21,785 bases of DNA from a virus, in IMG/VR virus record IMGVR_UViG_3300033149_004005, positions 1-21,785 of that record. One strand, written 5' to 3'. The translations under genes were made by a program, and so were the position numbers. The notes below the pieces were generated by a model. It was not told the DNA's origin. It was given only the letters and a program-made list of their open reading frames with translations, and made no database searches. Positions 1,987-21,368 of this stretch are shown here, piece by piece; position 1 is the stretch's first letter; the number at the start of each line of letters is the position of its first letter.

Positions 1987-3437
1987 TGCGATATTTCATT
2001 GTGGCATTCTTGGTCGATGTACTGATGGTCGCGGCTTTTGCCGACATCAATATCTTTGTTGGAGACATGAGTAATGCTTCAGCATTGAACGGCGGTTGTG
2101 CTGATATTTCATTTAGTGCATCAGATGTGATTGGCACAAATGGGGCAGCCATCGATCCTTGTATCTGCAATATTTCCAACAATGGAAGCGGGAAGGTGAG
2201 GTGCACCGTCACTTCCGGTATGTTTGATGATGCGGATGTCGGGATGTGGGCTTATTTTGACTCCGACGGGACGCACGCGGATGGTCGCTATGAGATTATT
2301 GCAGTCGATGCATCGAATAACTGGATCGATCTGGACCTTGCTTATGTAGGTGATGAAACGTCACGAGGCGTCAATGTGGGCGGAGCGGTGCCGGAATCGG
2401 AATTGGAAAATGTGATGGATGCGACAGGCTATCCAGCGTCGCCGGAAAACCAGTCTGAGAATGTATTCGTACGCTGGTATGACGGCGGCGACGGCTATGC
2501 CCGGTCCACTCAGTGGTTGATAGATGCAGGCGCCGGTGCAGGCAATGAATACTTCCGCTATCTGATCGGTTGCGACGATTCCTTCGATGTGTTGGCTGCC
2601 GAATCATATGCCAGAGTATATGCCTCGGTATCGTTGGGGGACGATGAACTGGTTCGTATTACCGTATCATATCAGGTCTTTCAGAACATCGAGTTTGATG
2701 CGCAATCCAAAGCCTCATATCCAGTGTATCATTCAGGACAATACTTGGCATTCCTGGGCTGCAGTTTCCACGGGGGGACATCGTTTGGTATCTATCAGGC
2801 GGGCGCTTTTTCTCGTTTGGTTGATTGTGAAATCTATGACAATGACAGTCATGGGTATTTCAATGGAACGCGGAGCGGCTGCGCAGTAATCGGTTCGCAT
2901 ATACATGATAACGGCGGGCGTGGGATGAGCGGCAATCCGGAAGAGGGAGGCTGGATTGGTAATGAAGTATACGACAATGGAAGTTATGGTATTGAGATCG
3001 GTTCGGCCGCAAACACAACGTCAGTCATCATATATAACACGGTGTATGGGAATGCTAGCGATGGGATATATGTGAATAGCAGTGCGCGTCAACTCATACT
3101 ATGTTGCAACACGTCGGTTGGCAACTCCGGATACGGATTCAATGTTGGCGCATCTATTGAAGTAACGACAAGCAATAGTTTTGGTTGGAATCACGCATAC
3201 GACAATACGTTGGGGAACACAAACCTATCGGGCACGTGGAGTGATTTGGGCTTGGGTGGTAACGTTACCGGTGATCCGCTGTTCACCTCGGTGGTCGATG
3301 GATCCGAAGATTTCAGACCTCTAATCGGCAGTCCATTGATTCAAGCGGACATGTTGGGCAGAACCATCGGGGCACGGGAACCGCTGATATCGGGCGGCGG
3401 CCGCGGCGCCGGAATCGGGACGGGGATCGGACGATGA
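1986..3437 (+). CDS. Signal-peptide-bearing right-handed beta-helix protein (spike-like)
   Basis: 483 residues. The ATG overlaps the preceding TGA by one base (TGATG), with AGAGGGG upstream. A signal peptide is clear: MRY, hydrophobic to residue 18, then AFA before Asp20. Residues about 20-135 are a beta-rich head. Residues about 255-410 hold parallel beta-helix coils of the NosD/PbH1 type, with recurring IYDN, IHDN, VYDN, VYGN and SVGN turns each followed by a Gly-hydrophobic strand. The C-terminal part reads GDPLFTSVVDGSEDFRPLIGSPLI, a common closing motif of secreted beta-helix proteins, and ends in a Gly-Arg-rich tail. In phages this fold is used by tailspikes that bind or cleave polysaccharide. 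No lyase or hydrolase active site is visible. The sequence is noticeably more AT-rich than the head genes. Confidence 0.75.
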   Translation: MRYFIVAFLVDVLMVAAFADINIFVGDMSNASALNGGCADISFSASDVIGTNGAAIDPCICNISNNGSGKVRCTVTSGMFDDADVGMWAYFDSDGTHADGRYEIIAVDASNNWIDLDLAYVGDETSRGVNVGGAVPESELENVMDATGYPASPENQSENVFVRWYDGGDGYARSTQWLIDAGAGAGNEYFRYLIGCDDSFDVLAAESYARVYASVSLGDDELVRITVSYQVFQNIEFDAQSKASYPVYHSGQYLAFLGCSFHGGTSFGIYQAGAFSRLVDCEIYDNDSHGYFNGTRSGCAVIGSHIHDNGGRGMSGNPEEGGWIGNEVYDNGSYGIEIGSAANTTSVIIYNTVYGNASDGIYVNSSARQLILCCNTSVGNSGYGFNVGASIEVTTSNSFGWNHAYDNTLGNTNLSGTWSDLGLGGNVTGDPLFTSVVDGSEDFRPLIGSPLIQADMLGRTIGAREPLISGGGRGAGIGTGIGR

Positions 3438-4839: not shown

Positions 4840-5369
4840 TGGCTGACGTATACATCGGTACCGATAATGTATTGCTGCTCTCGGGTCTGACTGACCAGGT
4901 CTCTGACAGCTATGTCAACTCTGCAACAGTCACAGCGAGGCTGTACGATCTGACGGATCGGCGGCACCTGGATCGGGCGGCCGCGGCGGACAACGGAGAT
5001 GGTACGATCAACATTACATGTACCGATCATGGTTTGTCAGAGGGTGATGTAATCCTGATCCAAGGAGCGGACGTATACAATGGTGTGTACACGCTTGCTT
5101 CCGGCACGGCCGATGACACGCTGGTCATTACGACGACCTACGTGGCACGGACGTTTACAGGTGACGAGTTTCTGCTCAAGGCAATCGGTGACGAGATCAC
5201 GCTCAGTTATGTGAGTGAAAGCGATGGAAATTACCGAGGCCAGTTGACATCTGCCAGCACAATGAAGCTTGAGCAGGATCATACGTACTGGCTTATTATC
5301 ACGGCGGTCGATACGAGCGGGTATCAGACGATGTTCCGTGTCGAACTCACGGGAGCTTGGGCAACATGA
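4839..5369 (+). CDS. Ig-like beta-sandwich virion protein (putative)
   Basis: 176 residues from the ATG that overlaps the preceding TGA (TGATG). A GTG six bases upstream is in frame, but the coupled ATG fits better. The outer parts (NSATVTARLYDLTD and GDEITLSYVSESDGNYRGQL, HTYWLIITAVDTSGY) read as one Ig-like or fibronectin-like fold common in phage baseplate and fibre accessory proteins. Between them, residues about 52-111 (DNGDGTINITCTDHGLSEGD, IQGADVYNGVYTL) form a second small beta module of the HGL-GD type, which looks inserted. It ends with an ATGA overlap onto the HNH gene. A virion or appendage role is inferred from position and fold; no enzymatic motif is seen. Confidence 0.6.
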   Translation: MADVYIGTDNVLLLSGLTDQVSDSYVNSATVTARLYDLTDRRHLDRAAAADNGDGTINITCTDHGLSEGDVILIQGADVYNGVYTLASGTADDTLVITTTYVARTFTGDEFLLKAIGDEITLSYVSESDGNYRGQLTSASTMKLEQDHTYWLIITAVDTSGYQTMFRVELTGAWAT

Positions 5370-5644
5370 TTATGCCGTATCATCGCCTCCGTGGCCGCCC
5401 GCGGGAGCGGCGACCAAGTGCCAGGCGGCGAGGGTACACGCGGCGGTGGGAACGGGCGCGGCGAGCATTCCTGGCAGCTCATCCGCTATGCGCGGAATGC
5501 TTACGACAGGGCCGGACGCGGGCGGCCGACGTTGTGGACCATATTGTGCCGCACCGCGGGGATATGCGGCTCTTTTGGGATATGGACAATTGGCAGGCAC
5601 TGTGCAAGCGGTGCCATGATCGCAAGACAGGACGCGGGCAATGA
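5366..5644 (+). CDS. HNH homing-type endonuclease associated with terminase
   Basis: 92 residues from the ATG in an ATGA overlap; a TTG nine bases upstream is less likely. The HNH fold is plain: zinc ligands C42 and C45, catalytic-region D58-H59, H63, N75, then C80, C83 and H84 (LCAECLRQ, VVDHIVPH, NWQALCKRCHDRKT). The first 35 residues are very basic. HNH proteins next to terminase genes, such as HK97 gp74, are needed for terminase cutting at cos sites, and the position directly before terS fits that role. It also hints at cos-type packaging. A mobile selfish HNH is the alternative, but the tight overlap with neighbours argues for an integrated packaging component. Confidence 0.93.
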   Translation: MIMPYHRLRGRPRERRPSARRRGYTRRWERARRAFLAAHPLCAECLRQGRTRAADVVDHIVPHRGDMRLFWDMDNWQALCKRCHDRKTGRGQ

Positions 5645-5892: not shown

Positions 5893-6202
5893 GAGCTGCA
5901 AACCTCCAGCCTACGTCAAGGGCAAGGCACGTAAGGCGTGGCAGCGAATCGCGCCGGTGCTCATCGGGCTGGGAGTGCTGACAACATTGGACGTGGACGT
6001 GCTCGCCGAATATTGCGTCTGTTACGCAGCATGGCGCGACGCAGCAGAGACCGGCGATGTGGATCGCATGCTCAAGCTTGGCACGCACCTGAATCGTCTG
6101 CGTGCAGTTCTGGGCCTGACGCCGGTGGATCGCAGCCGGATCAAAGTGACTGCAAAGGATGGCGACGAAGACCCCTACCTCCAGCCGCGCGTCGTGGGTT
6201 GA
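5798..6202 (+). CDS. terS: Terminase small subunit, P27 family
   Basis: 134 residues from the ATG at 5798. No strong ribosome-binding site is visible, so start choice rests on homology-like sequence (VPTQVLRLRGSWRAKQRDGE). That segment matches the basic Arg-Gly N-terminus of P27-type small terminases. Residues 37-80 (PPAYVKGKARKAWQRIAPVL, LGVLTTLDVDVLAEYC) are the diagnostic helical core. Small terminases recognise the packaging start site and recruit the large subunit. The next gene begins inside this one, with 44 bases of overlap, and the preceding small gene overlaps it by 95 bases. Confidence 0.88.
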   Translation: MPARRVPTQVLRLRGSWRAKQRDGEPEPPAAESCKPPAYVKGKARKAWQRIAPVLIGLGVLTTLDVDVLAEYCVCYAAWRDAAETGDVDRMLKLGTHLNRLRAVLGLTPVDRSRIKVTAKDGDEDPYLQPRVVG

Positions 6203-7790
6203 AACGCTGCGATTGCTGCCGGGATACGACTGCTTTCAAGATTCCGGGGGGGCTGTCTTTGACGAGGCCGCAGCCAACCATGCGGTGGGCTTTTTCGAGC
6301 ATCATCTGCGATTCTTTGAAGGCCGTTGCGCCGGCCAGCCGTTTTTGCTGGAGCCGTGGCAGCGGGCGGTTGTCGGAAATCTCTTCGGCTGGCGGATGCC
6401 GGATGGGACGCGACGCTATCGGCAGGTCTACCTTGGCGTTGCACGAAAGAACGGCAAGACGCCGCTGGCGGCGGGGATCATTCTCTACGTTGCCTTCTGC
6501 GACGGGGAACCCGGCGCACAGATATACTCGGCCGCCGGCGAGCGTGACCAGGCTGCATTGATCTTCCGGCATGCGGCCGGGATGGTGGACTTAAATCCAA
6601 AGCTGGCCGATCGCTGCCGCGTGTACCGGTCGTTCAAGTCGATCGAATTCGACGGCCAGACGTTTTACCGCGCGTTGACCGCGACTGCCGAGTCCAAGCA
6701 CGGACTCAACGCCCACTGCGTGGTCGTCGACGAGTTGCATGTGCAGAAGACACGCGATCTCGTCGACGCGCTGGTGACATCGACGGCCAGCCGAACGCAG
6801 CCGATCGTACTGTACACGACCACCGCCGGCTATGACCGGCACAGCATCTGTTGGGAGGTGTATCGCTACGCGATGCAGGTACGGGATGGGGTGATCGAGG
6901 ACTCGACGTTCCTGCCGGTGATTTACGAGGTGCCCGAGGACGCCGATTGGCAGGATGAGAGCCTCTGGGCCCTGGCCAACCCAAACCTCGGCGTAAGCGT
7001 CGAGTTGAGTTACCTGCGGCGTGAAGCGGCTCGGGCTAAAAAGCTGCCCGCGTACGAGAATACGTTCCGACGGCTGCACCTGAACCAGTGGGTCGAGCAG
7101 GAGCAACGATGGATCGCGATGGGCGCTTGGGACAAGTGCAACGGGCCGGTCGACCCGGAACGGCTCCGCGGCCGACCGTGTTACGCGGGACTGGATATGT
7201 CCAGTACGCGGGACCTGACGGCCTTCGTCCTGGCGTTCGACGTGGACGGAGACATTGCGGTGTTGCCGTACGCCTGGATACCGCGTGACCGGATGCACGA
7301 GCGGGTCGAGCGCGACCGGGTGCCTTACGACGCTTGGGCCCGGGCCGGGTTGATCGAGACGACACCCGGCAATGTGATCGATTATGAGCACATCAAGCGA
7401 CGCATCTTCGATATTGCCGAGCGATACGATCTCCGGCAGATTGCGATTGACCGCTGGAACGCGGCCCAGATGATCCAGGAGCTGGCGGCCGAGGGCTTGA
7501 CCGTCGTGCCATTTGGTCAAGGGTTTGCTTCAATGTCCGCCCCAAGCAAGCGGCTGGAAGAACTCGTTCTGAGCGGGCGGCTTCGGCATGGCGGGCATCC
7601 GGTTCTGCGATGGTGCATCGGCAACTGCGCCGTTGAGATCGACGCGGCCGAGAATGTCAAGCCGAGCAAGAAACGGAGCTTCGAGCGGATCGACCTGGTC
7701 GTCGCGCTCGTGATGGCCCTGGGGCTGATGATGACCGCCGAGCGCCCGAAAGAATCGATATACGAGCAGCGGGGGCTGATACAGCTATGA
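6159..7790 (+). CDS. terL: Terminase large subunit (packaging ATPase and nuclease)
   Basis: 543 residues, a normal length for HK97-type TerL. The ATPase domain shows a Walker A (GVARKNGKT, 93-101), a Walker B with catalytic glutamate (VVVDELH, D191-E192) and a coupling motif (LYTTTAG, 218-224). The RNase H-like nuclease domain shows its metal-binding acids at D346 (GLDMSSTRD), D431 (AIDRWNA) and D512 (RIDLVVAL). It uses ATP to pump DNA into the prohead through the portal and makes the terminal cuts. The ATG lies within terS and AAAGG directly abuts it, so translation probably depends on coupling to terS. It ends in an ATGA overlap with the portal gene. All key residues are intact. Confidence 0.97.
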   Translation: MATKTPTSSRASWVETLRLLPGYDCFQDSGGAVFDEAAANHAVGFFEHHLRFFEGRCAGQPFLLEPWQRAVVGNLFGWRMPDGTRRYRQVYLGVARKNGKTPLAAGIILYVAFCDGEPGAQIYSAAGERDQAALIFRHAAGMVDLNPKLADRCRVYRSFKSIEFDGQTFYRALTATAESKHGLNAHCVVVDELHVQKTRDLVDALVTSTASRTQPIVLYTTTAGYDRHSICWEVYRYAMQVRDGVIEDSTFLPVIYEVPEDADWQDESLWALANPNLGVSVELSYLRREAARAKKLPAYENTFRRLHLNQWVEQEQRWIAMGAWDKCNGPVDPERLRGRPCYAGLDMSSTRDLTAFVLAFDVDGDIAVLPYAWIPRDRMHERVERDRVPYDAWARAGLIETTPGNVIDYEHIKRRIFDIAERYDLRQIAIDRWNAAQMIQELAAEGLTVVPFGQGFASMSAPSKRLEELVLSGRLRHGGHPVLRWCIGNCAVEIDAAENVKPSKKRSFERIDLVVALVMALGLMMTAERPKESIYEQRGLIQL

Positions 7791-9286
7791 ACGCAATAAC
7801 CCGATGGCGATCTCGGCTGGCTCAGTGGATCATGCCGACCATGAGCACGACCAGCTCTACGGCGGGCTGGAGTACGCTGCTGTCCACGGATACGGCGGCC
7901 GGCGAGAGAGTGACAGCCGACACGGCCAAGCAGGTGACTGCGGTCATGGCGTGCGTCCGCGTGTTGTCCGAGGCGATAGCCTCGCTGCCGCTGGTGTTGT
8001 ATCGACGTTTGCCGAACGGCGGCAAAGAGCGCGTAGTCGATCATCCGATCCACGACGTTGTGGTCATGCGTCCGAACGGCCAGCAGACGGGTTTCGAGTT
8101 CCGCGAGATGCTTCAATCACACTTGGCCCTGCGAGGCAATGCTTACGCGCTGATCGATTGGGATTATCTCGGCCGACCTATACGGTTATGGCCTTTGCAC
8201 CCGGATCGCATCAGTGTCGAATCCGAAGGTGGGCGCGTTACGGGTTACCAGTACGCCGACCTGAACGGGCAGCGGAAACGTTATCCGGTTGAACGCATTT
8301 TGCACCTGCGGGGTCTTTCTGAGGATGGGGTCAAGGGCTTGAGCCCGGTTCAGTATGCAGCACGAGCGATCGGTGTCTCGCTGGCCACCGACAAGTTTGG
8401 CGAGAAGTTTTTTGCCAACGGGGCCCGGGCGTCGGGTGCACTGAAACATCCGGGTGTGTTGAGCGACACCGCCATCCAGCGATTGCGTCGCATGCTGGCC
8501 GAGACGATCAGCGGGCAGAACATGCTCAAGCCGTTGGTGCTCGAAGAAGGCGCCGAGTGGCAGCAGCTGTCCATCAATCCGGACGAGGCTCAGTTCCTTG
8601 AAACGCGCAAGTACCAGGTGGCGGACATCGCCAGGATATTTCGCATCCCACCACACATGATCGGTGACCTGGAGCGGGCGACGTTCAGCAACATCACGGA
8701 GCAGTCGATTGAGTTCGTGCAATACAGCTTGCTGCCGTGGTTGCGTCGCTGGGAGTTGCGGTTGAATGCGATCTTTCTGGACAATGGCCGCAAGTATTTC
8801 CTGGAGTTCCTGGTCGACGGGCTGCTGCGGGGTAAGCCGTCGGAGCGGACCGAGGCGCTGGCCAAACAGTTCATGCATGGGGCCCTGACGCTCAACGAGT
8901 GGCGGGCCATCGAGAACCGCAACCCCGTCGAGGGCGGCGATGAGCATTACGTGCCGGCGAACCTGGCCCGGCTGGGCGAGGGATCGCAGGTGCCCCAGGC
9001 GATACTCGACGACGCGGCCGAGCGGCTGTCGTCGGCGCACATTCGCGCAGCCGATCGATCCAAGCCGTACGACGCGATGCGATATGTGTCTCGTGTGCTC
9101 GACCCGATCTCCATGGCCTATCGCCAGCCGTGGGATCACAAGCTGGCGACCGAGCGTTGTCGGCTAGCCGAGCAGGTGGTGAACGACTGTCAGGAGGGTT
9201 GGGAGCAAACCATCCATCAAATCTACCGGGACATGGTCTCGGACGTACTAGGAGCGGCAAAAGATGAAATACGCACGGATATGTGA
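7787..9286 (+). CDS. Portal protein, HK97 family
   Basis: 499 residues from an ATGA start. Family signatures are strong: TAVMACVRVLSEAIASLPLV (51-70), LRGNAYALIDWDYLGRP (115-131), LWPLHPDRI (134-142), and the stretch DIARIFRIPPHMIGDLE (280-296) followed by SIEFVQYSLLPWLRRWE, which is typical of this family. A dodecameric portal forms the DNA entry channel and binds terminase and the head-tail connector. The family core ends near residue 395. About 100 further residues (RYVSRVLDPISMAYRQPWDH and beyond) form a C-terminal helical extension of unknown role. The protease gene starts inside the last 23 bases. Confidence 0.96.
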   Translation: MNAITRWRSRLAQWIMPTMSTTSSTAGWSTLLSTDTAAGERVTADTAKQVTAVMACVRVLSEAIASLPLVLYRRLPNGGKERVVDHPIHDVVVMRPNGQQTGFEFREMLQSHLALRGNAYALIDWDYLGRPIRLWPLHPDRISVESEGGRVTGYQYADLNGQRKRYPVERILHLRGLSEDGVKGLSPVQYAARAIGVSLATDKFGEKFFANGARASGALKHPGVLSDTAIQRLRRMLAETISGQNMLKPLVLEEGAEWQQLSINPDEAQFLETRKYQVADIARIFRIPPHMIGDLERATFSNITEQSIEFVQYSLLPWLRRWELRLNAIFLDNGRKYFLEFLVDGLLRGKPSERTEALAKQFMHGALTLNEWRAIENRNPVEGGDEHYVPANLARLGEGSQVPQAILDDAAERLSSAHIRAADRSKPYDAMRYVSRVLDPISMAYRQPWDHKLATERCRLAEQVVNDCQEGWEQTIHQIYRDMVSDVLGAAKDEIRTDM

Positions 9287-10139
9287 GGCGGTGTACAACA
9301 CGCCCTGGATGGTCCTTCCCGAGAAGCTGGCAACGATCGAGGCATATGTGCGGGCCAGGGTTCTCGGCAAGGCATCGGAGAGTCCGGCTGTGGCTGCGCG
9401 GGATCGGTCGACCCATCAGCGACGTGGAGTTGCGATCGTTGGTATGTACGGAACGATCCTGCCCAGGACCTACATGCTGAATCCCTTTTCCGGTGGCGTC
9501 AGCCTGGAGCAGTTCCGGCAGGACATGCGGGCCCTGGTCGACGATGAGCGCATCTCGGCGATCGTGCTCGATATCGATTCGCCGGGTGGCATGGTTGCCG
9601 GCGTCCGGGAGACCTGGGACCTGTTGATGGAAGCACGTGAACGCAAGCAGATCGTGGCAGTGGCCAACACGCTCATGGCCTCGGCGGCGTACTACCTCGG
9701 CTCGGCGGCCGGCCGCGTTGTGGCCACGCCGTCGGCGGACGTCGGCAGCATCGGGGTGGTGATGGCGCATTACGACTACAGCCGACAGCTGGACCGCGAG
9801 GGTATCACGCCGACCGTTCTGCGGTCGGGCAAATACAAGGCCGAGGGCCTGCCCGTTGAGCCGTTGAGCCAGGAGGCGCGGGAATGGGCCCAGGCCCAAC
9901 TTGATCGACTGCATGACGAGTTCGTGCGGTCCGTTGCTGCGGGTCGGGCTGTGTCCCTGACGCAGGTCCGCGAGCACTTCGGCCAGGGTCGTGTGGTCGA
10001 CGCCCAGTCGGCCCTGAAGGCCGGCATGGTCGACGAGGTCGCTACGCTGGAGTCGGTCGTCGAGCGACTGCAAGCGGGCCGCACGATCAAGTCGTGGCGC
10101 GCACGCCTCGAGGCGTTGCGTCCGCCACGGATCACATAG
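9264..10139 (+). CDS. S49 (SppA/ClpP-like) prohead maturation protease
   Basis: 291 residues, with AGGAG at 9250-9254 spaced nine bases from the ATG, which lies inside the portal gene. The fold is that of signal-peptide-peptidase-type serine proteases: VLDIDSPGGM (101-110), the nucleophile Ser140 in LMASAAYYLG, and the general-base Lys192 in RSGKYKAEG. The segment VGSIGVVMAHYDYS (160-173) is also characteristic. In HK97-like phages using this family, the protease removes the scaffold region of the capsid protein inside the prohead. Its place between portal and capsid genes supports that. A bacterial SppA is unlikely, since there is no membrane anchor. Confidence 0.95.
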   Translation: MKYARICEAVYNTPWMVLPEKLATIEAYVRARVLGKASESPAVAARDRSTHQRRGVAIVGMYGTILPRTYMLNPFSGGVSLEQFRQDMRALVDDERISAIVLDIDSPGGMVAGVRETWDLLMEARERKQIVAVANTLMASAAYYLGSAAGRVVATPSADVGSIGVVMAHYDYSRQLDREGITPTVLRSGKYKAEGLPVEPLSQEAREWAQAQLDRLHDEFVRSVAAGRAVSLTQVREHFGQGRVVDAQSALKAGMVDEVATLESVVERLQAGRTIKSWRARLEALRPPRIT

Positions 10140-10162
10140 AGCCCCTACAAGACAAGCCAGCC

Positions 10163-10194
10163 AAGGGGCGGCCGTTGCGACGGTCGCCCCTTTT
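10163..10194 (+). terminator. Hairpin plus T-tract between protease and capsid genes
   Basis: GGGGCGGCCG (10165-10174) pairs with CGGTCGCCCC (10181-10190) over ten base pairs including one G-U, with a TTGCGA loop. AA before and TTTT after (10191-10194) extend the stem. The T-run is short, so partial termination or an RNA-processing/stability element is more likely than a full stop. Confidence 0.7.
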
Positions 10195-10263
10195 GCATGC
10201 GCGGTAGCGCGTGCATCGGCACGGGCAGTCAGCAACGGAAAACACGCAATGAGGAGAAGTATC
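10195..10263 (+). promoter_or_regulatory. Capsid gene leader with small hairpin and strong Shine-Dalgarno
   Basis: A second imperfect hairpin (10196-10216, ATGCGCG against CGCGTGCAT with a two-base bulge) follows the terminator. GAGGAGAA at 10251-10258 lies seven bases before the capsid ATG. An upstream in-frame ATG at 10249 overlaps this Shine-Dalgarno sequence and is therefore rejected as the start. No convincing -35/-10 promoter is visible. Confidence 0.55.
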
Positions 10264-11637
10264 ATGGAAAACTTGAAACAGCTGGCCGACCGCCGGCGTC
10301 AGCACATCGACGCAATGGACGCGCTGGTGGCCACGGCCGAAGCGGAAGACCGCGACCTGACCGACGACGAGCAGACGCAATTCGACGAGCACCAGGCGGC
10401 GGTCAAGCAGCTGGACCGTCGGATGGAGCGGATGCTGGCGGTCCAGGAGGTCAAGGAGCAGTCGAACGAGGTGGTCGACCCGATCGATCCGCCGCCCTCG
10501 GCGGCGCCGATCAGGGAGAGCCGGCCAACGGTTCTGCCGGCCACGGCTCACCGGTACGGTGGGCTAGCGATCTTCAACACGCCGGATCGGGCCGAGACGG
10601 CCTACAAGCAGGGTATGCTGATGCTGGCCTCGTTGGGCCGGCCCGAGGCAGCCCGCTGGTGTCACGAGCACGGGATCGCACCCCAGTGGGTCAATTTCGC
10701 CGTCCACGAGGAAGGCAATAATGCGACCGGCGGATACATGGTCCTGCCCGAATTCGACCGCGAGGTTATCAAACTGGAACTCCAGTACGGGGCGTTTTTG
10801 GCCAACGCACGTCGGGTGCCGATGAGCAGCGACAGAATGCTCCGCGTCAAGAAGGAGGGCGGCCTGACGGCCTACGCGATCGGCGAAAGCGACCAGATCA
10901 CCGAGAGTACGAGTGATTGGAGCCAGAAGGAGCTGATCGCGAAGAGCTGGGGCGTCCTGACGCGGATCAGCAACGAGTTGGCGGCCGACACCGTCATCAG
11001 CCTGATGGACGAACTGGCTCAGGATGTGGCCCTGGCGATGGCCCAGAAGATCGACGAATGCGGCTTCAACGGCGACGGCACGTCGACCTACCACGGCATC
11101 TTGGGGGTCAGGCAGCGGCTGAGCGACGTCAACGGCGCCGACGACGGCGGCGGCTTGGTGCTCGGCTCGGGTAACGCCTGGAGCGAGCTGACCCTGGCGA
11201 ACTTCCACAGCGTGCTGGCGCGAACGCCGACCTACGGCAAGTATGGCGGCAAGTGGTTCTGCTCTCCGGCGTTTTACGAGTCGGTCATGGTGAAGCTGCA
11301 GATCGCCGCGGGCGGCAACACGCGCAACGACATCTCGCAGGGAGGGCTCGGCGAGTTTCTGGGCTATCCCGTCCTTGGTGTTGAAGTAATGCCTACCAGT
11401 GAGGCCAACAGCCAGATTTGCTGCCTGTTCGGCAATCTGGTCAAGGCGGCCGATTTCGGAGATCGCCAAGCCTCGACCTTTGCGGCTTCCGAGCACGCGA
11501 CGGTTGGCGGCGAGAGCGTTTTCGAGCGCAACCAGATCGCGCTGCGATGGACCGAGCGATGGGATATCAACGTTCACAGCATCGGCACGTCGAGCGCAGC
11601 CGGCCCGATTGTCGGCCTGATCACCGCAGCCTCGTAA
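10264..11637 (+). CDS. Major capsid protein, HK97 fold
   Basis: 457 residues. Residues 1-65 are a charged coiled coil (LADRRRQHIDAMDALVAT, LTDDEQTQFDEHQAAVKQLD), the delta or scaffold domain typical of HK97-type capsid proteins. A Pro-rich linker at about 73-90 probably holds the cleavage site for the S49 protease upstream. From about residue 150 the HK97 core is clear: TGGYMVLPEFDREVI (155-169), RVPMSSDRMLRVKK, then LLTRISNELAADT-type E-loop and spine-helix sequence and GDGTSTYHGILG. It builds the icosahedral shell. No HK97-like cross-linking Lys/Asn pair can be assigned by eye. Base composition is GC-rich compared with the beta-helix gene (38 of 60 versus 25 of 60 bases in one sampled line each). 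Confidence 0.95.
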   Translation: MENLKQLADRRRQHIDAMDALVATAEAEDRDLTDDEQTQFDEHQAAVKQLDRRMERMLAVQEVKEQSNEVVDPIDPPPSAAPIRESRPTVLPATAHRYGGLAIFNTPDRAETAYKQGMLMLASLGRPEAARWCHEHGIAPQWVNFAVHEEGNNATGGYMVLPEFDREVIKLELQYGAFLANARRVPMSSDRMLRVKKEGGLTAYAIGESDQITESTSDWSQKELIAKSWGVLTRISNELAADTVISLMDELAQDVALAMAQKIDECGFNGDGTSTYHGILGVRQRLSDVNGADDGGGLVLGSGNAWSELTLANFHSVLARTPTYGKYGGKWFCSPAFYESVMVKLQIAAGGNTRNDISQGGLGEFLGYPVLGVEVMPTSEANSQICCLFGNLVKAADFGDRQASTFAASEHATVGGESVFERNQIALRWTERWDINVHSIGTSSAAGPIVGLITAAS

Positions 11638-11654
11638 CAGGAAGGAGATGAACC

Positions 11655-12155
11655 ATGAATCCGAGTGACAAATGTGCGGTAGTCGCGATGCCGCCGGCGA
11701 CGTGCGCGACGAACGCGACGCAGTCGATGGTCTTCGAGACGCCAGGCTACGGCCGGGCCCTCGTCGCCGTGGACGTTGGCACGCATGCCACAAACGGAGA
11801 GTCCATCGGGACGCTGAAGTTCTCCGAGTCGGATACGTCGACGGCGATCAGCAGCATGACGGACATCGCCGCCCTGACCGGCGGGACGCAGACGAGTTCC
11901 AGTGTCGGCTTCGTGATCCCCGGCGCCGATGAGCTCGGCCCCGGTGCCGCCCTGGTGTTCAACATCGACTTGACGAAGCGCAAGAAGTATCTGGCGCTGC
12001 AGATCACGCCGGGCACGACGACGATGAACATCGGGGCTGTGGCGCTGCTGAATCAGCCGCAGCACACGAGCGCCGAGACGGCCTCGGAGAAGTCGGCCGT
12101 CACGAACTACGCCAACACCAACGCCACGAACTGCGCCCTCGTGGTCACCGCGTAG
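11655..12155 (+). CDS. Candidate capsid decoration or stabilisation protein
   Basis: 166 residues with an excellent Shine-Dalgarno (AGGAAGGAG) just before the ATG and directly after the capsid gene. It is rich in Ala, Thr and Ser with beta-strand-like segments (GRALVAVDVGTHATNG, KKYLALQITPGTTTMNIGAV). It has no catalytic motif, signal peptide or membrane segment. Genes in this position often encode head decoration proteins, and the strong ribosome-binding site fits a high-copy virion protein. The role is inferred from position and composition; I cannot match it to a named family. Confidence 0.7.
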   Translation: MNPSDKCAVVAMPPATCATNATQSMVFETPGYGRALVAVDVGTHATNGESIGTLKFSESDTSTAISSMTDIAALTGGTQTSSSVGFVIPGADELGPGAALVFNIDLTKRKKYLALQITPGTTTMNIGAVALLNQPQHTSAETASEKSAVTNYANTNATNCALVVTA

Positions 12156-12163
12156 CCAACCGG

Positions 12164-12246
12164 TCCTGTCTGGTCGGCCCCGCTCGGTCTCGTGCCGGCG
12201 GGGCTCGACCGACCGGGCCACGACAATCCCAGACCAGACAGGAGAA
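12164..12246 (+). promoter_or_regulatory. Long inverted repeat enclosing the Shine-Dalgarno of the next gene
   Basis: TCCTGTCTGGTC (12164-12175) is perfectly complementary to GACCAGACAGGA (12232-12243). Within it GCCCCGC (12177-12183) pairs with GCGGGGC (12198-12204). The right outer arm contains most of the AGGAG (12240-12244) used by the ATG at 12252, so the folded RNA would hide the ribosome-binding site. No T-run follows, so it is not a terminator. Confidence 0.7.
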
Positions 12247-12251
12247 AATCA

Positions 12252-13454
12252 ATGAAGCTGAACCTCGGCAGCGGCGAGCAGATGATCGAGGGCTACGTGC
12301 CCTACGACGTGAAGCTTGGTCGCGAAGCCTATCCATTGGATGTGCCCGACGATTCGGTCGATGAGATCCGTGCCTCGCATGTGCTGGAGCACTTCTCACA
12401 CCGCGAGGTCTACTGGGTCGTCAAGCACTGGGTGAACAAGCTCAAGCCGGGCGGTATCCTGAAGATCGCCGTGCCGGACTTCGGCAAGCTCGCTCACTCC
12501 TATGTTTCCGGGGAAAACACGGAGGTGTGCCTGTATGTGATGGGCGGACAGGTGGACGACGACGACATCCACCGCTGCATCTTCGACGAATCGTCCCTGC
12601 GTCAGGTGATGGAGCGGGCCGGCCTGGACGACATCCAGCCGTGGGAATCGGAGATCGAGGATGCCGCGGCCCTGCCGATCTCGCTGAATCTGATGGGCCG
12701 CAAGCGGGCGGACGCCAAGCATGAGGTCTCGATCAAGGCGGTGATGAGCATGCCGCGGTTGGCGTTCACCGACAACATCTTCACGGCCGTAGGCGTCCTG
12801 CATCCGCTCGGGATCACCTTGGAGTGGGGCACCGGCGTATTCTGGGGCCAGGTGCTCGAGCGGCTGATGACCACGCACCTGCACGACGGCACCGAGTTTA
12901 TCCTGACGTTGGACTACGACACGTGGTTCCGTCGCGAGCACGTGCTGCGGTTGTGCCAGCTGATGGCGGCCCACCCGGAGGCCGACGCGATTTTCCCGAT
13001 GCAGGTCCAGCGGCAGCGCGACCTGGTTATGGCCGGCCGTGCCGACGGCGAGGGCGGTGTGCGGGTATCCTACACCGAGCAAGAGTTGGCCGCCGACCTG
13101 ATCCCAGCCGCAACGGGGCATTTCGGGTTGACGCTGATCCGGGTCGAGGCGCTGCGTGGGCTGCCGCATCCCTGGTTCCACTCGCAGCCCAATCCGCAGG
13201 GTCGGTGGGACTTCGGCCGGATCGACGAGGACATCTGGTTCTGGCAGCATTTCCGCAACCACGATCGTCGGGCGTTCCTGGCGCCTGGCGTGCGGATCGG
13301 GCACATGGAGCTGATGTGCACGTTCCCGACGTTCGATGGGACCGGCCGGTGCGTGCCGGCCCACGTGCACATCGATCAAGCCAACCGTGGCGAGGTACCG
13401 CCGGGAGGCATCCCCAATGCTGAAATGGAAAGTAATCACGGCGCCGACGACTGA
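12252..13454 (+). CDS. Methyltransferase-glycosyltransferase fusion
   Basis: 400 residues from the ATG behind AGGAG; an in-frame upstream GTG falls in the hairpin and is rejected. Residues 1-155 form a predicted SAM-dependent methyltransferase of the COG4627 type: motif I LNLGSGEQ (3-10), VPDDSVDEIRASHVLEHF (31-48) and LKPGGILKIAVPDF (64-77). Residues about 160-370 look like a GT-A glycosyltransferase: FILTLDYDTWF with a DxD at 221-223, DAIFPMQVQRQ (245-255), DEDIWFWQHF (325-334) and a late His351 in VRIGHMEL. It could glycosylate or methylate a virion protein or a glycan. Glycosyltransferases within structural operons are known in phages whose capsid and tail proteins are glycosylated. Substrate and donor are unknown. 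Its 3' end overlaps the connector gene by 38 bases. Confidence 0.82.
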   Translation: MKLNLGSGEQMIEGYVPYDVKLGREAYPLDVPDDSVDEIRASHVLEHFSHREVYWVVKHWVNKLKPGGILKIAVPDFGKLAHSYVSGENTEVCLYVMGGQVDDDDIHRCIFDESSLRQVMERAGLDDIQPWESEIEDAAALPISLNLMGRKRADAKHEVSIKAVMSMPRLAFTDNIFTAVGVLHPLGITLEWGTGVFWGQVLERLMTTHLHDGTEFILTLDYDTWFRREHVLRLCQLMAAHPEADAIFPMQVQRQRDLVMAGRADGEGGVRVSYTEQELAADLIPAATGHFGLTLIRVEALRGLPHPWFHSQPNPQGRWDFGRIDEDIWFWQHFRNHDRRAFLAPGVRIGHMELMCTFPTFDGTGRCVPAHVHIDQANRGEVPPGGIPNAEMESNHGADD

Positions 13455-13998
13455 CCCGATCACCGTCGAGGACGCCAAGCGACATATGCGAGTCGATGCG
13501 GACGACGATGACGAGTACATCAAGTCCCTGATCGAGATGGCGACGCAGTGGTGCGAGCGCATTCAGGGTCGGGCGTACATCACGCAGACGCTGATGAGCA
13601 AGTGTGACGCCTTCCCCGAGTATTTCCTGCTGCCGCGGCCGCCCCTGCAATCCGTCACGTCGATCACATACGTCGACCAGAATGGTGATACGCAGACGGT
13701 GGACACCAGCATCTATGTGGTCGACACGCACAGCGAGCCGGGGCGTGTGACGTTGGCCTACGATGAGGAATGGCCCTACGACGTGCGGGCGATCGAGAAC
13801 GCCGTGGCCATCACCTATGTTGCGGGCTACGGCGGCCCGGCCGACGTGCCGGAGCGGATCAAGCACGCGATCCGCCTGCTCGTGTCGCACATGTACGAGC
13901 ACCGGGAGCCCATCGTCCTCAATGCCACCCCGTCTACTGTCCCGATGAGCATCCGTGACCTGCTCGGCGTGGACCGTATCTGGGATGCTCCGCTATGA
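13417..13998 (+). CDS. Head-tail connector (gp6-like) protein
   Basis: 193 residues from the ATG at 13417, which is preceded by GGGAGG at 13403-13408; a longer in-frame reading upstream only shadows the fusion gene. The pattern ITVEDAKRHMRVDADDDDEY, ATQWCERIQGRAYITQT, LPRPPLQSVTSITY and VPERIKHAIRLLVSHMYEHR is the usual connector signature (HK97 gp6 / phiE125 gp8 type). Such proteins form a ring under the portal and prepare the head for tail joining. It ends with an ATGA overlap onto the head-closure gene, matching the standard gene order. Confidence 0.92.
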   Translation: MLKWKVITAPTTDPITVEDAKRHMRVDADDDDEYIKSLIEMATQWCERIQGRAYITQTLMSKCDAFPEYFLLPRPPLQSVTSITYVDQNGDTQTVDTSIYVVDTHSEPGRVTLAYDEEWPYDVRAIENAVAITYVAGYGGPADVPERIKHAIRLLVSHMYEHREPIVLNATPSTVPMSIRDLLGVDRIWDAPL

Positions 13999-14312
13999 GA
14001 GCTGGCCGACTGAGACATCGCGTTGATCTGCAGCACGTCACGGAGACGCAGGACAGCACGGGTGATCCTGTGCGCAGCTACAGCACTTACGCGACGGTCT
14101 GGGCGTCGATCGAGCCCGTCTCGGGACGCGAATATTATGCCGCCCAGCAGGCCGGCGCCGTCCGGCAGCACAAGATCGTGATTCGAAGCAGGAGAGATGT
14201 CGCGCCGACCGATCGCGTCATGTTTGGTAGCCGAATCTTTGAGGTCGAAGCCGTGCTTCACCCGGCCGAGCGCAACATCGAGACGCACTTGATGTGCAAG
14301 GAGCTGGTGTGA
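13995..14312 (+). CDS. Head closure (head-tail joining) protein
   Basis: 105 residues from an ATGA start. The sequence RAGRLRHRVDLQH, followed by WASIEPVSGREYYAAQQ, RSRRDVAPTDRVMFGSRIFE and a closing LMCKELV, is the SPP1 gp16-like / Phage_H_T_join pattern at normal length. It closes the DNA exit after packaging and provides the tail docking surface. It ends in a TGATG overlap with the next gene. Confidence 0.92.
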   Translation: MRAGRLRHRVDLQHVTETQDSTGDPVRSYSTYATVWASIEPVSGREYYAAQQAGAVRQHKIVIRSRRDVAPTDRVMFGSRIFEVEAVLHPAERNIETHLMCKELV

Positions 14313-14791
14313 TGGACGGGGTGTCGATCGGCATTGAGGGTGACAAACGGTTGCAACGGAAGCTGGCGGCGCTCGAGCGGCGAGACAAGACCAAGATCGT
14401 CAAAAAAGGGTTGCGCGAGGCCTCGAAGATTCTGCGTGATGCTGCGAGGCAAAATGCCCGGTCGATGGTTGGCGGGCAGATGGGGAGCCTGTTGGCACGA
14501 ACGTTGAAGTATTACATGCTTCGTATGCGACGGCGTGACCTGTATGGCATGCAGGTCAGACATAAGGCTGACGTGCCGGAGTTGGTGGATACGACGAAGG
14601 ACGACCAGAAATATTACATTCCCGCAGCGATCGAATATGGTCACGCCCTGCCGGGCTATGGCGGATCCGGTCGTAAGGATGTCGGTCCGATCCCTTACGT
14701 ACGACGAGCCTACGATGAAAAAGAGGATGCGGCGAAGCTCGCGTTCGAAGCATGTTTGAGACGGCAGGTGGAGGCAGTGTTCCGTGGCTGA
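14312..14791 (+). CDS. HK97 gp10-like tail or neck completion protein
   Basis: 159 residues from the ATG in TGATG, with AAGGAG upstream. The region GDKRLQRKLAALERRDKTKI and KKGLREASKILRDAARQNA, and the later IEYGHALPGYGGSG followed by PIPYVRRAYDE, fit the HK97 gp10 family of minor neck/tail proteins, which sit between head closure and tail terminator genes. It is strongly basic in the first half. It ends in an 8-base overlap with a GTG-started gene. Confidence 0.87.
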   Translation: MDGVSIGIEGDKRLQRKLAALERRDKTKIVKKGLREASKILRDAARQNARSMVGGQMGSLLARTLKYYMLRMRRRDLYGMQVRHKADVPELVDTTKDDQKYYIPAAIEYGHALPGYGGSGRKDVGPIPYVRRAYDEKEDAAKLAFEACLRRQVEAVFRG

Positions 14792-15167
14792 AGAAGCGGC
14801 ACTCTACGCCCTGCTCTCCGGTGTGGCAGGCCGGGTCTATCCGCAAGTGCTTCCACAAGGTGCGACATTGCCTGCCGTCGTTTATACACGGATCGGCGGC
14901 GGTGGCGATTACGCACTGGCTGGAGAGGTCTCGGCCAGGCGGAGCACTTGGCAGATCAGTGTTTGGGCCTCGACGTATAGCGCGGCTTTGTCGCTTGCGG
15001 CATCGGTGCGTTCGACCTTGACGGCCTATACGGGCACGTCGGCCGGGACCTCGATCGACCACATATCGATCGACGACGAAAGCGACCTGTACGCCGCACC
15101 GAACCAGATTGACGTTGCACGCCGGTACGGACGGCGGATTGATGTGACATTATGGACACAGGCATAA
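14784..15167 (+). CDS. Tail terminator / tail completion protein (DUF3168-like)
   Basis: 127 residues starting at GTG, with GGAGG at 14770-14774 spaced nine bases away. The sequence EEAALYALLSGVAGRVYPQV, LPAVVYTRI, TWQISVWASTYSAALSLA and YGRRIDVTLW is typical of the DUF3168 / lambda gpU-like fold. These proteins cap the tail tube and join it to the head. It stands in the conserved position just before the major tail protein, 12 bases away. Confidence 0.9.
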   Translation: MAEEAALYALLSGVAGRVYPQVLPQGATLPAVVYTRIGGGGDYALAGEVSARRSTWQISVWASTYSAALSLAASVRSTLTAYTGTSAGTSIDHISIDDESDLYAAPNQIDVARRYGRRIDVTLWTQA

Positions 15168-15179
15168 GGAGTCTGAATC

Positions 15180-15644
15180 ATGGCCTACGGTAAGCCAGGA
15201 GCTAATGCGCGGCTCTACGTTGCAGTAGACGCAGCCTTCAGTACGAACACGGAGGTGGCGGACGTCGTCAGCGTAAACTGGACAGGCGCCGAGCGCGGCG
15301 CCGAGGAGATCACGACACTCGCCGACATGTGGCGGCAGTACGAGCCGACGCTGGGTGAGGCCGGGTCGTTGGAGGTTGAACTGAATTATGCGGCGACGAA
15401 CAGCAGCGCAAGCTCGCAGCTGTTGCACGATTATTACGACAACGGTTCGACCGCCTATTGGGGCCTCCGGCTGATGGAATCCACCAACACGACGTTCACC
15501 GAGACGAGCTCTTCTCGGCTCTACGCTGCGGGGTTCATCACCTCGCTCGGTATCGAGGTTCCGGGCCCCGGCGGAATCGTCAAGTGTTCCGCGACGATCA
15601 AGCTGACCGGCCAGCCCACCGTCAAGGCGGTTGGCGAGTCCTAA
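15180..15644 (+). CDS. Major tail tube protein
   Basis: 154 residues, with AAGGAG before the ATG. The segments ANARLYVAVDAAF, VNWTGAERGAEEITTLAD, YYDNGSTAYWGLRL and GPGGIVKCSATIKLTGQP follow the beta-sandwich pattern of siphovirus tail tube proteins. The protein polymerises as stacked rings around the tape measure. It lies between the tail terminator and the chaperone genes, as expected. The good ribosome-binding site fits a high-copy product. Family assignment beyond tail tube is not possible by eye. Confidence 0.87.
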   Translation: MAYGKPGANARLYVAVDAAFSTNTEVADVVSVNWTGAERGAEEITTLADMWRQYEPTLGEAGSLEVELNYAATNSSASSQLLHDYYDNGSTAYWGLRLMESTNTTFTETSSSRLYAAGFITSLGIEVPGPGGIVKCSATIKLTGQPTVKAVGES

Positions 15645-18692: not shown

Positions 18693-20066
18693 ATGGCGAC
18701 GGTGCGATGGGTCGGCGGCGCGACGGCGACCGCACAGGTAGATGCATTGACGGTGGGCGGGACGATCGAGACAGACGATATTTTCAAGATTACGCTGACC
18801 GGCGAAAACGGTGATACGCACACCCTGAGCGTGACGGCCGGGTCGACGAATGCTGATACTGTGGCATCGAACATTGCAGCAGCCTTCAATGCCGAAACGC
18901 ATTACTTGTTCACCGGTATCACGGCTGCGGCCGTCGGTTCCGGCGGGCAATTGACTTTGACTGCTGACACTGCAGGCGTTCCGTTTTATTGCACGGTCGA
19001 GACGACGGAAGCTGGTGGCGGTGCGGCCGATGCCCAGACGTTCACACGATCGGCAACGACGGTCAACAGCGGGCCATACGACTGGAACACGGCGGAGAAT
19101 TGGGATACTGGCAGCATTCCCGCAGATGCCGACACGGTGTATGTAGAAGGGGCGACTATTCTCTATGGTTTGGATCAATCTGGTTCGTTCGGCGCGTTGG
19201 AGTCGCTGGCCGCTTTGCATATCAATCAATCCCAGGTGGGCAGCAACCCGGGCACTGGGCGATCGGCTGCCTATCTCGTGATCCCCGCCGATGAGGTCCA
19301 TATCAATGAATATGTCGGCCCTGGCTCAGTCGTGCAGTCAGGCCCTGTCATGGTGGACACCTCGAACACGGCGTCGACCATTGTAGTATACGGCGGGAGC
19401 AGCAATACGACCAGTACATTACCATCGGTTTGGCTTCTCGCCAACGCAGACACTACCGTTATTGACATTCGCGGTGGCATCGTTGGGATTGCATATGACT
19501 CAGGCAGTTCTAGCCTCATCAAGACATTGAGGGTTTCCGGCGGCTCTGTTTATACAGGCGACGGATTTTCTTGCTACGGGAGCGGTAATGGCGCAATCGA
19601 GATTTCTGGTGGAGTTGCGGATTTGGGCCTAGCCAATGACGTGCAAGACATTGACATTTTGGGCGGTACGGTCAAGATTCGCGAGAATGCCAACGACTTC
19701 CATGACTTGCGAATGGACGGCGGAACGCTTGAGCTCAGGATGGGAGACGACGGAACGGGTGGTGTGACTGTCTACGGTGGCACGCTTACATGGATTGGGT
19801 CGTCGACCACCGGCGGCATCAATTCGTTCGATATCTATGACGGGATGTTCATCTATGGCGGCGATCAGGATATTACGACGCTCAAGATTTACGGTGGAAT
19901 AGTAGACTGTACGGCAACGCATGACCAATATGGTGGTCGCACAGTTACGACCTGCTACCTTGAGCCCGGCGGAACGCTTATCGCGGATTTCTCGCAGATT
20001 ACGATTACCAGCGCGATTGCGCCGTACATTGACAATCGTGTCAAGTATGTCGCCGTTAGCCCATAA
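18693..20066 (+). CDS. Beta-solenoid tail fibre or surface protein
   Basis: 457 residues with GAGGTGAG before the ATG. Residues 1-120 (ATVRWVGGATATAQVDALTV, GDTHTLSVTAGSTNADTVAS) form an N-terminal module I recall from fibres of uncultured phages. At 130-152 DWNTAENWDTGSIPADADTV resembles the lead-in of autotransporter-like strand repeats. From about 225 to 430 a solenoid of short strands repeats an x-I/L-x-G-G-x-V pattern: IDIRGGIVGI, LRVSGGSVYTG, IEISGGVADLG, IDILGGTVKI, LRMDGGTLEL, VTVYGGTLTW, LKIYGGIVDC. No signal peptide is present, unlike the left-end spike genes. A fibre or adhesin role in the virion is likely. Confidence 0.75.
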   Translation: MATVRWVGGATATAQVDALTVGGTIETDDIFKITLTGENGDTHTLSVTAGSTNADTVASNIAAAFNAETHYLFTGITAAAVGSGGQLTLTADTAGVPFYCTVETTEAGGGAADAQTFTRSATTVNSGPYDWNTAENWDTGSIPADADTVYVEGATILYGLDQSGSFGALESLAALHINQSQVGSNPGTGRSAAYLVIPADEVHINEYVGPGSVVQSGPVMVDTSNTASTIVVYGGSSNTTSTLPSVWLLANADTTVIDIRGGIVGIAYDSGSSSLIKTLRVSGGSVYTGDGFSCYGSGNGAIEISGGVADLGLANDVQDIDILGGTVKIRENANDFHDLRMDGGTLELRMGDDGTGGVTVYGGTLTWIGSSTTGGINSFDIYDGMFIYGGDQDITTLKIYGGIVDCTATHDQYGGRTVTTCYLEPGGTLIADFSQITITSAIAPYIDNRVKYVAVSP

Positions 20067-20073
20067 GTGTGAC

Positions 20074-20514
20074 ATGCTGATTCCCACCTTACAATCCGGC
20101 CCACAGACTATCCGCAGTGTTGTGAATGCGCTTGTCCGCGCAGTCAATGGCCTGCTGGCAATCCGCGGCGACCGTTACATTCAGGTCTCGCGATCCCCGG
20201 TCGGGCTGGGCGTATCGCTCAACATTGAGCATGTAATGGAGCACCTCCGCGCAGGCGGCGGGGCGACGGCCGGTAGCAGTGTGCGGCTCGCTTACTGCCT
20301 GGAAGACGCACCGTCAGCATCGACGGTCCACTGTGCGCTGGATGATCCCGAAGGAGAGGTCATTATCGTGACTTGCCTGATTACCGGCGCTACGACGCTT
20401 GACGAGGCTGTGCCGAGGCTTGAGACCAATGCTGTGATCCCGGTCGCCAGAATCGGCCAAGACTGGTATTGCACGTCAATGTTTATCGGGTATTGCGCTG
20501 GGACATGTGAATGA
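20074..20514 (+). CDS. Hypothetical tail-module protein
   Basis: 146 residues from the ATG at 20074, seven bases after the solenoid stop; an in-frame ATG at 20047 would overlap that gene. No strong Shine-Dalgarno sequence decides between them. The N-terminus (QTIRSVVNALVRAVNGLL, AIRGDRYIQVSRSPVGLGVS) reads as an amphipathic helix plus a strand pair that recurs in phage tail clusters. The C-terminal part (GEVIIVTCLITGATTLDEAV, IGQDWYCTSMFIGYC) is beta-rich with several Cys. No named family is recognised. It ends in an ATGA overlap with the next gene. Confidence 0.65.
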   Translation: MLIPTLQSGPQTIRSVVNALVRAVNGLLAIRGDRYIQVSRSPVGLGVSLNIEHVMEHLRAGGGATAGSSVRLAYCLEDAPSASTVHCALDDPEGEVIIVTCLITGATTLDEAVPRLETNAVIPVARIGQDWYCTSMFIGYCAGTCE

Positions 20515-21368
20515 TGCGGGTTTTGTACGACTACGCCGAAAACCGTGTGCTCTTTGACGATGCTGCCGGGCAAGTGTTGGCTGGAGAGGGTGCAGTAACA
20601 CCGGATTATGTCGACCAGCAATACGAATGTCAGTTTTTGCCGCCCGGCAAAACGCCGCAGGCAATACACGTTGAGTTGGCCGGGTTCAAGGACTTGTTCC
20701 AGTTGTCCGACTATAAGCCGGCTGGATACGTACGGCCGAACGAATATAATATCAATGCTTACAGGGGCTATCAATGCTACCTTGACATGAACACAATGGA
20801 TGGTGAGTACTCGACCGTACACACGTACTTGCTGTCTCCAAGCCATGAGTGGTACCAAGGGGGGCGATGCCTGTGGTATGGCACGTCATCTGCTTCGTGG
20901 CGATCATATGGCCTGAGGCCTCCGTCCCGGATTCTTAGAAAAATGGGGGGCGACTGCCGCATAACGTACACCCAGTATGCTGTATTTCTGTCGTGTGAGG
21001 GCTCGCCAGAGTACCCTGATGTTCCGGATGGGTATTATGTTATCCAGGACTGGTATATGCCGAGCCGTTTTACTTGGACCGCACATACGCTCTGGATGTA
21101 TGTGATGATCCGCCACAATAGGATAGAGGTGGGGGTCGATGCGGTCGGGCAATACGACTCGCCGGCGCATCCGGACGTAGGGATGGTAGTATTCTACGGC
21201 TTCTTGTCTGTGCCGGACCTTGCTGTCAACGGACTTGTTCCGGAGCGAAGGTACATCGTGCCAAATACCGCATACGTCGCAGACTCCGTTCCATTGCCTG
21301 GCGGTGGTTGCCCGGCGCCTGACTATTGCCCTGTGCCTTGGCTGCCTACAGTAACAGTGAGAGTCTGA
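20511..21368 (+). CDS. Hypothetical beta-rich protein, possibly virion
   Basis: 285 residues. Two adjacent ATGs (20511 and 20514) can serve; the first gives an ATGA overlap. The sequence is rich in Tyr, Trp and Pro (NEYNINAYRGYQCYLDMNTM, SPSHEWYQGGRCLWYGTSSA, YVIQDWYMPSRFTWTAHTLW), suggesting a lectin-like or jelly-roll beta-sandwich, with a Pro-Cys-rich C-terminus (PGGGCPAPDYCPVPW). No signal peptide, membrane segment or catalytic motif is seen. Composition is AT-richer than the head genes. Its place after a fibre gene suggests a receptor-binding or decoration role, but I cannot name the family. Confidence 0.65.
   Translation: MMRVLYDYAENRVLFDDAAGQVLAGEGAVTPDYVDQQYECQFLPPGKTPQAIHVELAGFKDLFQLSDYKPAGYVRPNEYNINAYRGYQCYLDMNTMDGEYSTVHTYLLSPSHEWYQGGRCLWYGTSSASWRSYGLRPPSRILRKMGGDCRITYTQYAVFLSCEGSPEYPDVPDGYYVIQDWYMPSRFTWTAHTLWMYVMIRHNRIEVGVDAVGQYDSPAHPDVGMVVFYGFLSVPDLAVNGLVPERRYIVPNTAYVADSVPLPGGGCPAPDYCPVPWLPTVTVRV

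Follow-up and report, generated by a model that had tools for sequence, protein, structure and literature searches.

A methyltransferase–glycosyltransferase fusion beside the capsid genes of uncultured siphophages, probably serving virion decoration

A gene within the head operon of an uncultured siphophage encodes a methyltransferase (MT) fused to a glycosyltransferase (GT), and we consider it rather probable that this gene belongs to a modular phage cassette that attaches a probable deoxy-sugar to a head protein, most likely the product of the gene at 11655 (p11655), and methylates, sometimes also sulfates, that sugar. Phages with the fusion probably place modified sugars on their own virions, because in the relatives examined the fusion nearly always adjoins capsid genes, sometimes along with sulfate or deoxy-sugar enzymes. 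The window, i.e., the whole stretch of DNA that was analysed (21,785 bp), is an entire IMG/VR fragment and is incomplete as a phage genome. It contains a siphovirus head-tail module, comprising terminase, portal, S49 protease, HK97-type major capsid protein (MCP), p11655, the fusion, connectors and tail tube; the features used below are:

6159..7790, + strand, terminase large subunit (PF20441/PF03354)
7787..9286, + strand, portal protein (PF04860, E 3e-110)
9264..10139, + strand, head maturation protease, S49 (PF01343, E 6e-38)
10249..11637, + strand, MCP, the alternative candidate acceptor (PF05065, E 1.4e-29)
11655..12155, + strand, p11655, Ser/Thr-rich beta-sandwich protein after the MCP, the proposed acceptor (phrog_5707)
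12252..13454, + strand, MT-GT fusion protein (400 aa, single open frame, stop included)
12252..12701, + strand, MT half, residues 1-150 (motif I LNLGSG, ASHxLEHF, KPGG; Pfam Methyltransf_23/11)
12726..13427, + strand, predicted GT-A half, about residues 159-392 (DYD 221-223, D325xD327, H351; Pfam, Foldseek)
13417..13998, + strand, head-tail connector Ad1 (PF05135, E 1.4e-12; ATG 13417 after GGGAGG)
13995..14312, + strand, head closure protein Hc1 (PF05521, E 2e-29)

The position between capsid and connector genes that an earlier note had given to the fusion was borne out by the neighbours on either side (MCP, PF05065; p11655, phrog_5707; Ad1, PF05135). The fusion start (ATG 12252) is preceded by AGGAG, a ribosome-binding site, and the Ad1 gene begins within the last 38 bp of the fusion, an overlap suggestive of translational coupling. 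A promoter and terminator scan from 9200 to 15200 gave no signal above chance, and none parting the fusion from its neighbours. Other genes of the window include a 483-aa right-handed beta-helix protein upstream of terminase (1986-3437; Pfam Beta_helix, E 2.7e-15), possibly tail fibre or tailspike-like, and a 95-aa HNH endonuclease adjoining the terminase genes (5357-5644; PF01844, E 1.7e-10), an arrangement common in HK97-type phages; the large proteins at 106-1986, 18693-20066 and 20511-21368 gave no Pfam match.

The same note had proposed that both activities reside on one polypeptide, and this stood: the frame of 400 aa is single, Pfam and Foldseek place an MT and a GT in its two parts, and the AlphaFold2 model, built from an input alignment of 60 relatives, has a mean pLDDT of 94.3 and yields a class I methyltransferase fold and a GT-A fold. 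Since the pTM is 0.77, the placement of the two domains relative to one another is less certain than is each domain. The MT half matched Methyltransf_23 over residues 30-128 (E 4.5e-6) with a score of 26.9 bits, just 0.1 bit short of the Pfam gathering threshold (27), and its model aligned by Foldseek with class I methyltransferases at E about 1e-5 to 1e-7; it is thus predicted, by fold and motifs, to be a class I SAM-dependent methyltransferase that binds SAM and transfers methyl. The match of the GT half to Glyco_trans_2_3 (residues 216-348, E 4.2e-4) scored 20.6 against a cut-off of 27 and likewise stayed below threshold, and Foldseek aligned this half with the GT-A enzymes GlfT2, GalNAc-T2, B4GALNT1, COLGALT1 and Mnn9 (E about 1e-5 to 1e-7); the model predicts a GT-A fold with a DxD metal site. 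The GT27 polypeptide GalNAc-transferases and GlfT2 share with it the GT-A fold and a DxD-type site, but identity is 10-14%; a PDB sequence search with the fusion protein returned nothing useful and no detectable homology to GT27 or GlfT2, and the GT half was assigned to no CAZy family. GT27 enzymes are metal dependent and, like the GT half, have a late His in addition to the DxD-type site.

The motifs picked out earlier proved to be invariant or nearly so across the 60 aligned relatives. D221-x-D223, D325/D327 and H351 are invariant, as is A41-S-H-x-L-E-H47; of the motif-I and GG glycines of the MT half, which are invariant or nearly so, G6 is invariant and G8 nearly, while D19, the carboxylate after beta 2, is present and conserved in less than 90%. 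Both halves are under purifying selection, with dN/dS mostly 0.06-0.2 in the two alike, and all of the 80 best full-length relatives, out of at least 496, keep both domains in one uninterrupted frame; on these two grounds the fusion is not a chance joining. The protein is without a membrane segment (highest 19-residue hydropathy, 1.26).

What had been described earlier as a single gene is real, and is extended here to one member of a widespread modular family: a first scan found relatives at 12 loci and an alignment-based scan of IMG/VR found at least 496 stretches. Conservation of the slot was surveyed from two sides. Among the 80 best full-length fusions, counted on six frames wherever the flank was long enough, p11655 was found upstream in 72/74 and the MCP upstream in 65/67, and a recognised Ad1 follows downstream in 50/66. 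When loci were picked by the MCP gene alone (n=63, at least 2.5 kb downstream), p11655 was present in 62/63 and matches to the MT and GT models followed in 50/63, one of these (L249) being a DUF1698-type fusion with a separate MT. At least a GT-family match was found in 54/63, four loci having GT alone by model; one locus is cut off after MT, and seven carry p11655 but neither domain, so phages with this type of capsid can do without MT-GT. The two surveys partly share contigs, are thus not fully independent, and cover one capsid family. Co-occurrence of the fusion with p11655, raised in the earlier note, was therefore strongly positive (72/74 loci, and 50/63 in the reciprocal survey), and the genes are linked to virion structural genes, as would be expected of a phage virion glycosylation system. 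In several exceptions of the capsid-anchored set, a GT of the same family is joined to a different methyltransferase, or an MT is joined to an MptE-like domain. At L229 (6915-8489), L234 (1613-3211), L245 (4064-5662) and L249 (5016-6587) the slot holds a DUF1698-type MT fused to a GT of this family, a second, independent fusion.

A scan of 84,980 GTDB genomes gave MT and GT together in 6 of the best 80 loci (L088-L093); p11655 adjoins in five of the six, and further recognised phage genes occur in four of those five. L092, a 25-kb contig, has MT and GT and no phage gene by the models used; the other 74 have a methyltransferase with no GT-model match, a result for the best 80 loci that leaves room for the GT half elsewhere among bacteria. 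Within 50,697 phage records representing cultured phages, the fusion protein had no tblastn match at E 1e-5, two distant MT-GT members and one alternative fusion used as queries gave partial weak matches or none, and no full-length fusion relative was obtained with any query tried; p11655 also had no match in this collection. No description of the MT-GT head-operon arrangement was found in open-access papers, a scope that places most subscription papers and all preprints outside.

Accessory genes accompany the fusion in the slot. Across the 80 fusion loci there are 12 with a sulfotransferase, 12 with an FkbM methyltransferase and eight with a nucleotidyltransferase (the L073 match being weak); the seven strong nucleotidyltransferase loci of this fusion-anchored set all have a sulfotransferase too. 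Of four sulfotransferases examined singly, each either scores above the PF00685 cut-off of Pfam or retains the same motifs (K-x-H, RDGRD). The combinations FkbM-MT-GT, MT-FkbM-GT and SulfoT-MT-GT are each encoded in one uninterrupted frame, and these in-frame fusions tie the FkbM and sulfotransferase activities to MT-GT. A supposed sulfotransferase fusion (L054) and a nucleotidyltransferase fusion (L091) were rejected, as the frame joined to MT-GT was not the sulfotransferase or nucleotidyltransferase protein. The slot nucleotidyltransferase is of the HxGH type, as at L002 (2056-2685), L008 (2331-2993) and similar loci, and may perhaps contribute to making the sulfate donor.

As to which sugar is transferred, a GDP-mannose 4,6-dehydratase-type (gmd) gene adjoins the fusion in 6/80 loci. 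At L048 this gene is above the NCBIfam equivalog cut-off and is joined by a GDP-L-fucose synthase just below its cut-off; the other five loci have the gmd family, and GDP-L-fucose synthase was seen in one of the six. The MT half also has stand-alone bacterial relatives, which we take to be COG4627-like, which have the same domain and align with it across some 100-170 residues at an identity of about 28-41%; they differ from the fusion in having no GT-model match in the locus and no phage head genes (possible exception L140). In four of the six such loci inspected, the neighbours were gmd/fucose-synthase-type genes (L100, L123), a GT10 fucosyltransferase (L128) or flagellin (L126). The gmd-type genes in six relatives and these bacterial neighbourhoods favour a 6-deoxyhexose. 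The window itself showed no recognisable gmd/fucose-synthase-type gene, and the donor for its phage may therefore come from the host.

The candidate acceptor p11655, a putative virion protein, has the highest average Ser+Thr content of the modelled families (22.6%), at the level of the tail tube protein and above the MCP. Its model is mostly beta (pLDDT 83); fold searches returned only generic beta-sandwich or jelly-roll proteins from the PDB and mostly uncharacterised phage proteins from BFVD, so its proposed role rests on position, composition and co-divergence. Over 96 non-redundant loci, GT distances correlated with those of p11655 at r 0.71, with the attached MT half at 0.55 and with the MCP at 0.43, and the 60% subsample intervals exclude zero for each difference; this analysis was picked after the first correlations rather than preplanned, and such distances may be distorted by saturation, by differences in rate and by p11655 being short. 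The GT-p11655 partial r was 0.57 with MCP and MT controlled. Cluster agreement ran in the same direction at 6-10 clusters and not at 3-5, and nearest-neighbour agreement did not separate GT from MT. Simple linkage fails to explain the co-divergence of GT with p11655, because MT sits between them; narrow MT distances together with saturation could be an alternative source of the correlation. We regard the co-divergence as moderate evidence for p11655 as acceptor, and the sulfotransferases, the GDP-6-deoxyhexose genes and the co-divergence agree in fitting virion modification.

The mechanism that we infer, from the acceptor, sugar and methylated position to metal use and the presence of glycan on the virion, would have a soluble bifunctional enzyme produced together with the proteins of the head. 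The GT-A half of this enzyme, holding metal through D221-x-D223 and H351, would take a sugar from its nucleotide-linked donor, which in some relatives at least is probably a GDP-6-deoxyhexose, and move it to a Ser/Thr-rich surface of a virion head protein, p11655 being the most likely and the MCP a less likely one; the fused MT half would methylate the transferred sugar, and relatives would add tailoring by FkbM methyltransferase, sulfotransferase, nucleotidyltransferase and GDP-mannose dehydratase/GDP-fucose synthase. A broader proposal, which we advance tentatively, is that in this widespread, uncultured siphophage lineage a mix-and-match cassette, kept at a single fixed position of the head operon, builds methylated and in some cases sulfated deoxy-sugar glycans on p11655 as a dedicated protein of the head surface, the glycan chemistry diversifying as modules are swapped, like tail fibres.

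The same enzyme might instead act on the MCP or tail tube protein, p11655 being a mere neighbour. For the mycobacteriophage Che8, capsid and tail tube subunits are reported to be glycosylated at their C-termini (cited in PMC12619734 and PMC11256854); moreover the MCP is upstream in 65/67 loci, and the tail tube protein is as rich in Ser/Thr as p11655. The MCP, however, is lower in Ser/Thr (13.9%) and weakly linked to GT (partial r 0.10 with p11655 and MT controlled, against 0.57 for p11655), and we think this acceptor choice unlikely. That MT and GT act on different targets (e.g., protein methylation and an unrelated sugar transfer), joined for co-expression, would suit the partly separate histories of the halves (r 0.55) and the DUF1698-type MT found on the same GT family at L229, L234, L245 and L249; but that different methyltransferases became fused independently to one type of GT points to a single pathway, and the chlorovirus protein A064R (see below) shows a GT/MT arrangement working on one glycan, which makes separate targets improbable.

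Modification of a host surface glycan, for superinfection exclusion or receptor masking and with the head operon giving only late expression, has precedent in phage glycosyltransferases that alter host serotype (cited in PMC12619734 and PMC10955285), and bacterial MTs encoded near surface-glycan genes are homologues of the MT half. We give it little credence, since the fusion has no membrane segment, late head-operon timing is odd for a surface change before lysis, and the fixed pairing with p11655 is left unexplained. Glycosylation of phage DNA at a hypermodified base is the most improbable reading: DNA is the substrate of many glycosyltransferases from phages (Pyle 2024, as cited in PMC12619734), but no base-modification gene was recognised among the scanned proteins of the incomplete window, the enzymes closest in fold glycosylate proteins or polysaccharides, and the slot is tied to capsid genes, not to replication genes.

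For sugar transfer and methylation on a virion head protein, the nearest precedents by analogy would be A064R of chlorovirus PBCV-1 and the virion glycosylation of mycobacteriophages. A064R (GT-GT-MT) is a soluble protein joining rhamnosyltransferases, of which domain 1 is GT-A, to a 2-O-methyltransferase that acts on a capsid glycan deoxy-sugar, and PBCV-1 also encodes GMD and GMER (PMC7019647, PMC5408694). We liken it to the fusion by domain content, GT and MT being on one viral polypeptide; it differs in belonging to a eukaryotic algal virus with an unrelated capsid type, in acting on an N-glycan and in its order (GT-GT-MT vs MT-GT), and a gmd-type gene is found in the slot of 6/80 fusion relatives and was not seen in the window. 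For Che8 and relatives (Freeman 2023, as cited in PMC11256854 and PMC12619734), capsid and tail glycans are attributed to phage glycosyltransferases. The fusion had no tblastn match among the 50,697 phage records, a collection that may not include Che8; and in the cluster F1 phage Maravista glycosyltransferase genes lie near the genome 3' end, whereas the fusion lies between capsid and connector genes. Few tailed phages have been documented to glycosylate their virions. If the proposed reading is true, a large uncultured group does so as a matter of routine, using methyl, sulfate and deoxy-sugar chemistry of its own that is encoded next to the capsid gene; p11655 would be a named candidate glycan carrier, and those sulfotransferase, FkbM and gmd genes of viral metagenomes that lie in this slot, otherwise perhaps read as auxiliary metabolic genes, would serve virion decoration.

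Two further observations concern the slot. In several relatives an extra protein of ~166 aa lies between the fusion and Ad1 (L003, 7208-7708; L002, 4570-5070), with no Pfam match above cut-off. Some head modules carry two GT-family genes (L013, 377-1975 and 5947-6720; L205, 6700-7506 and 8280-9434), which suggests that some phages add two sugars one after the other.
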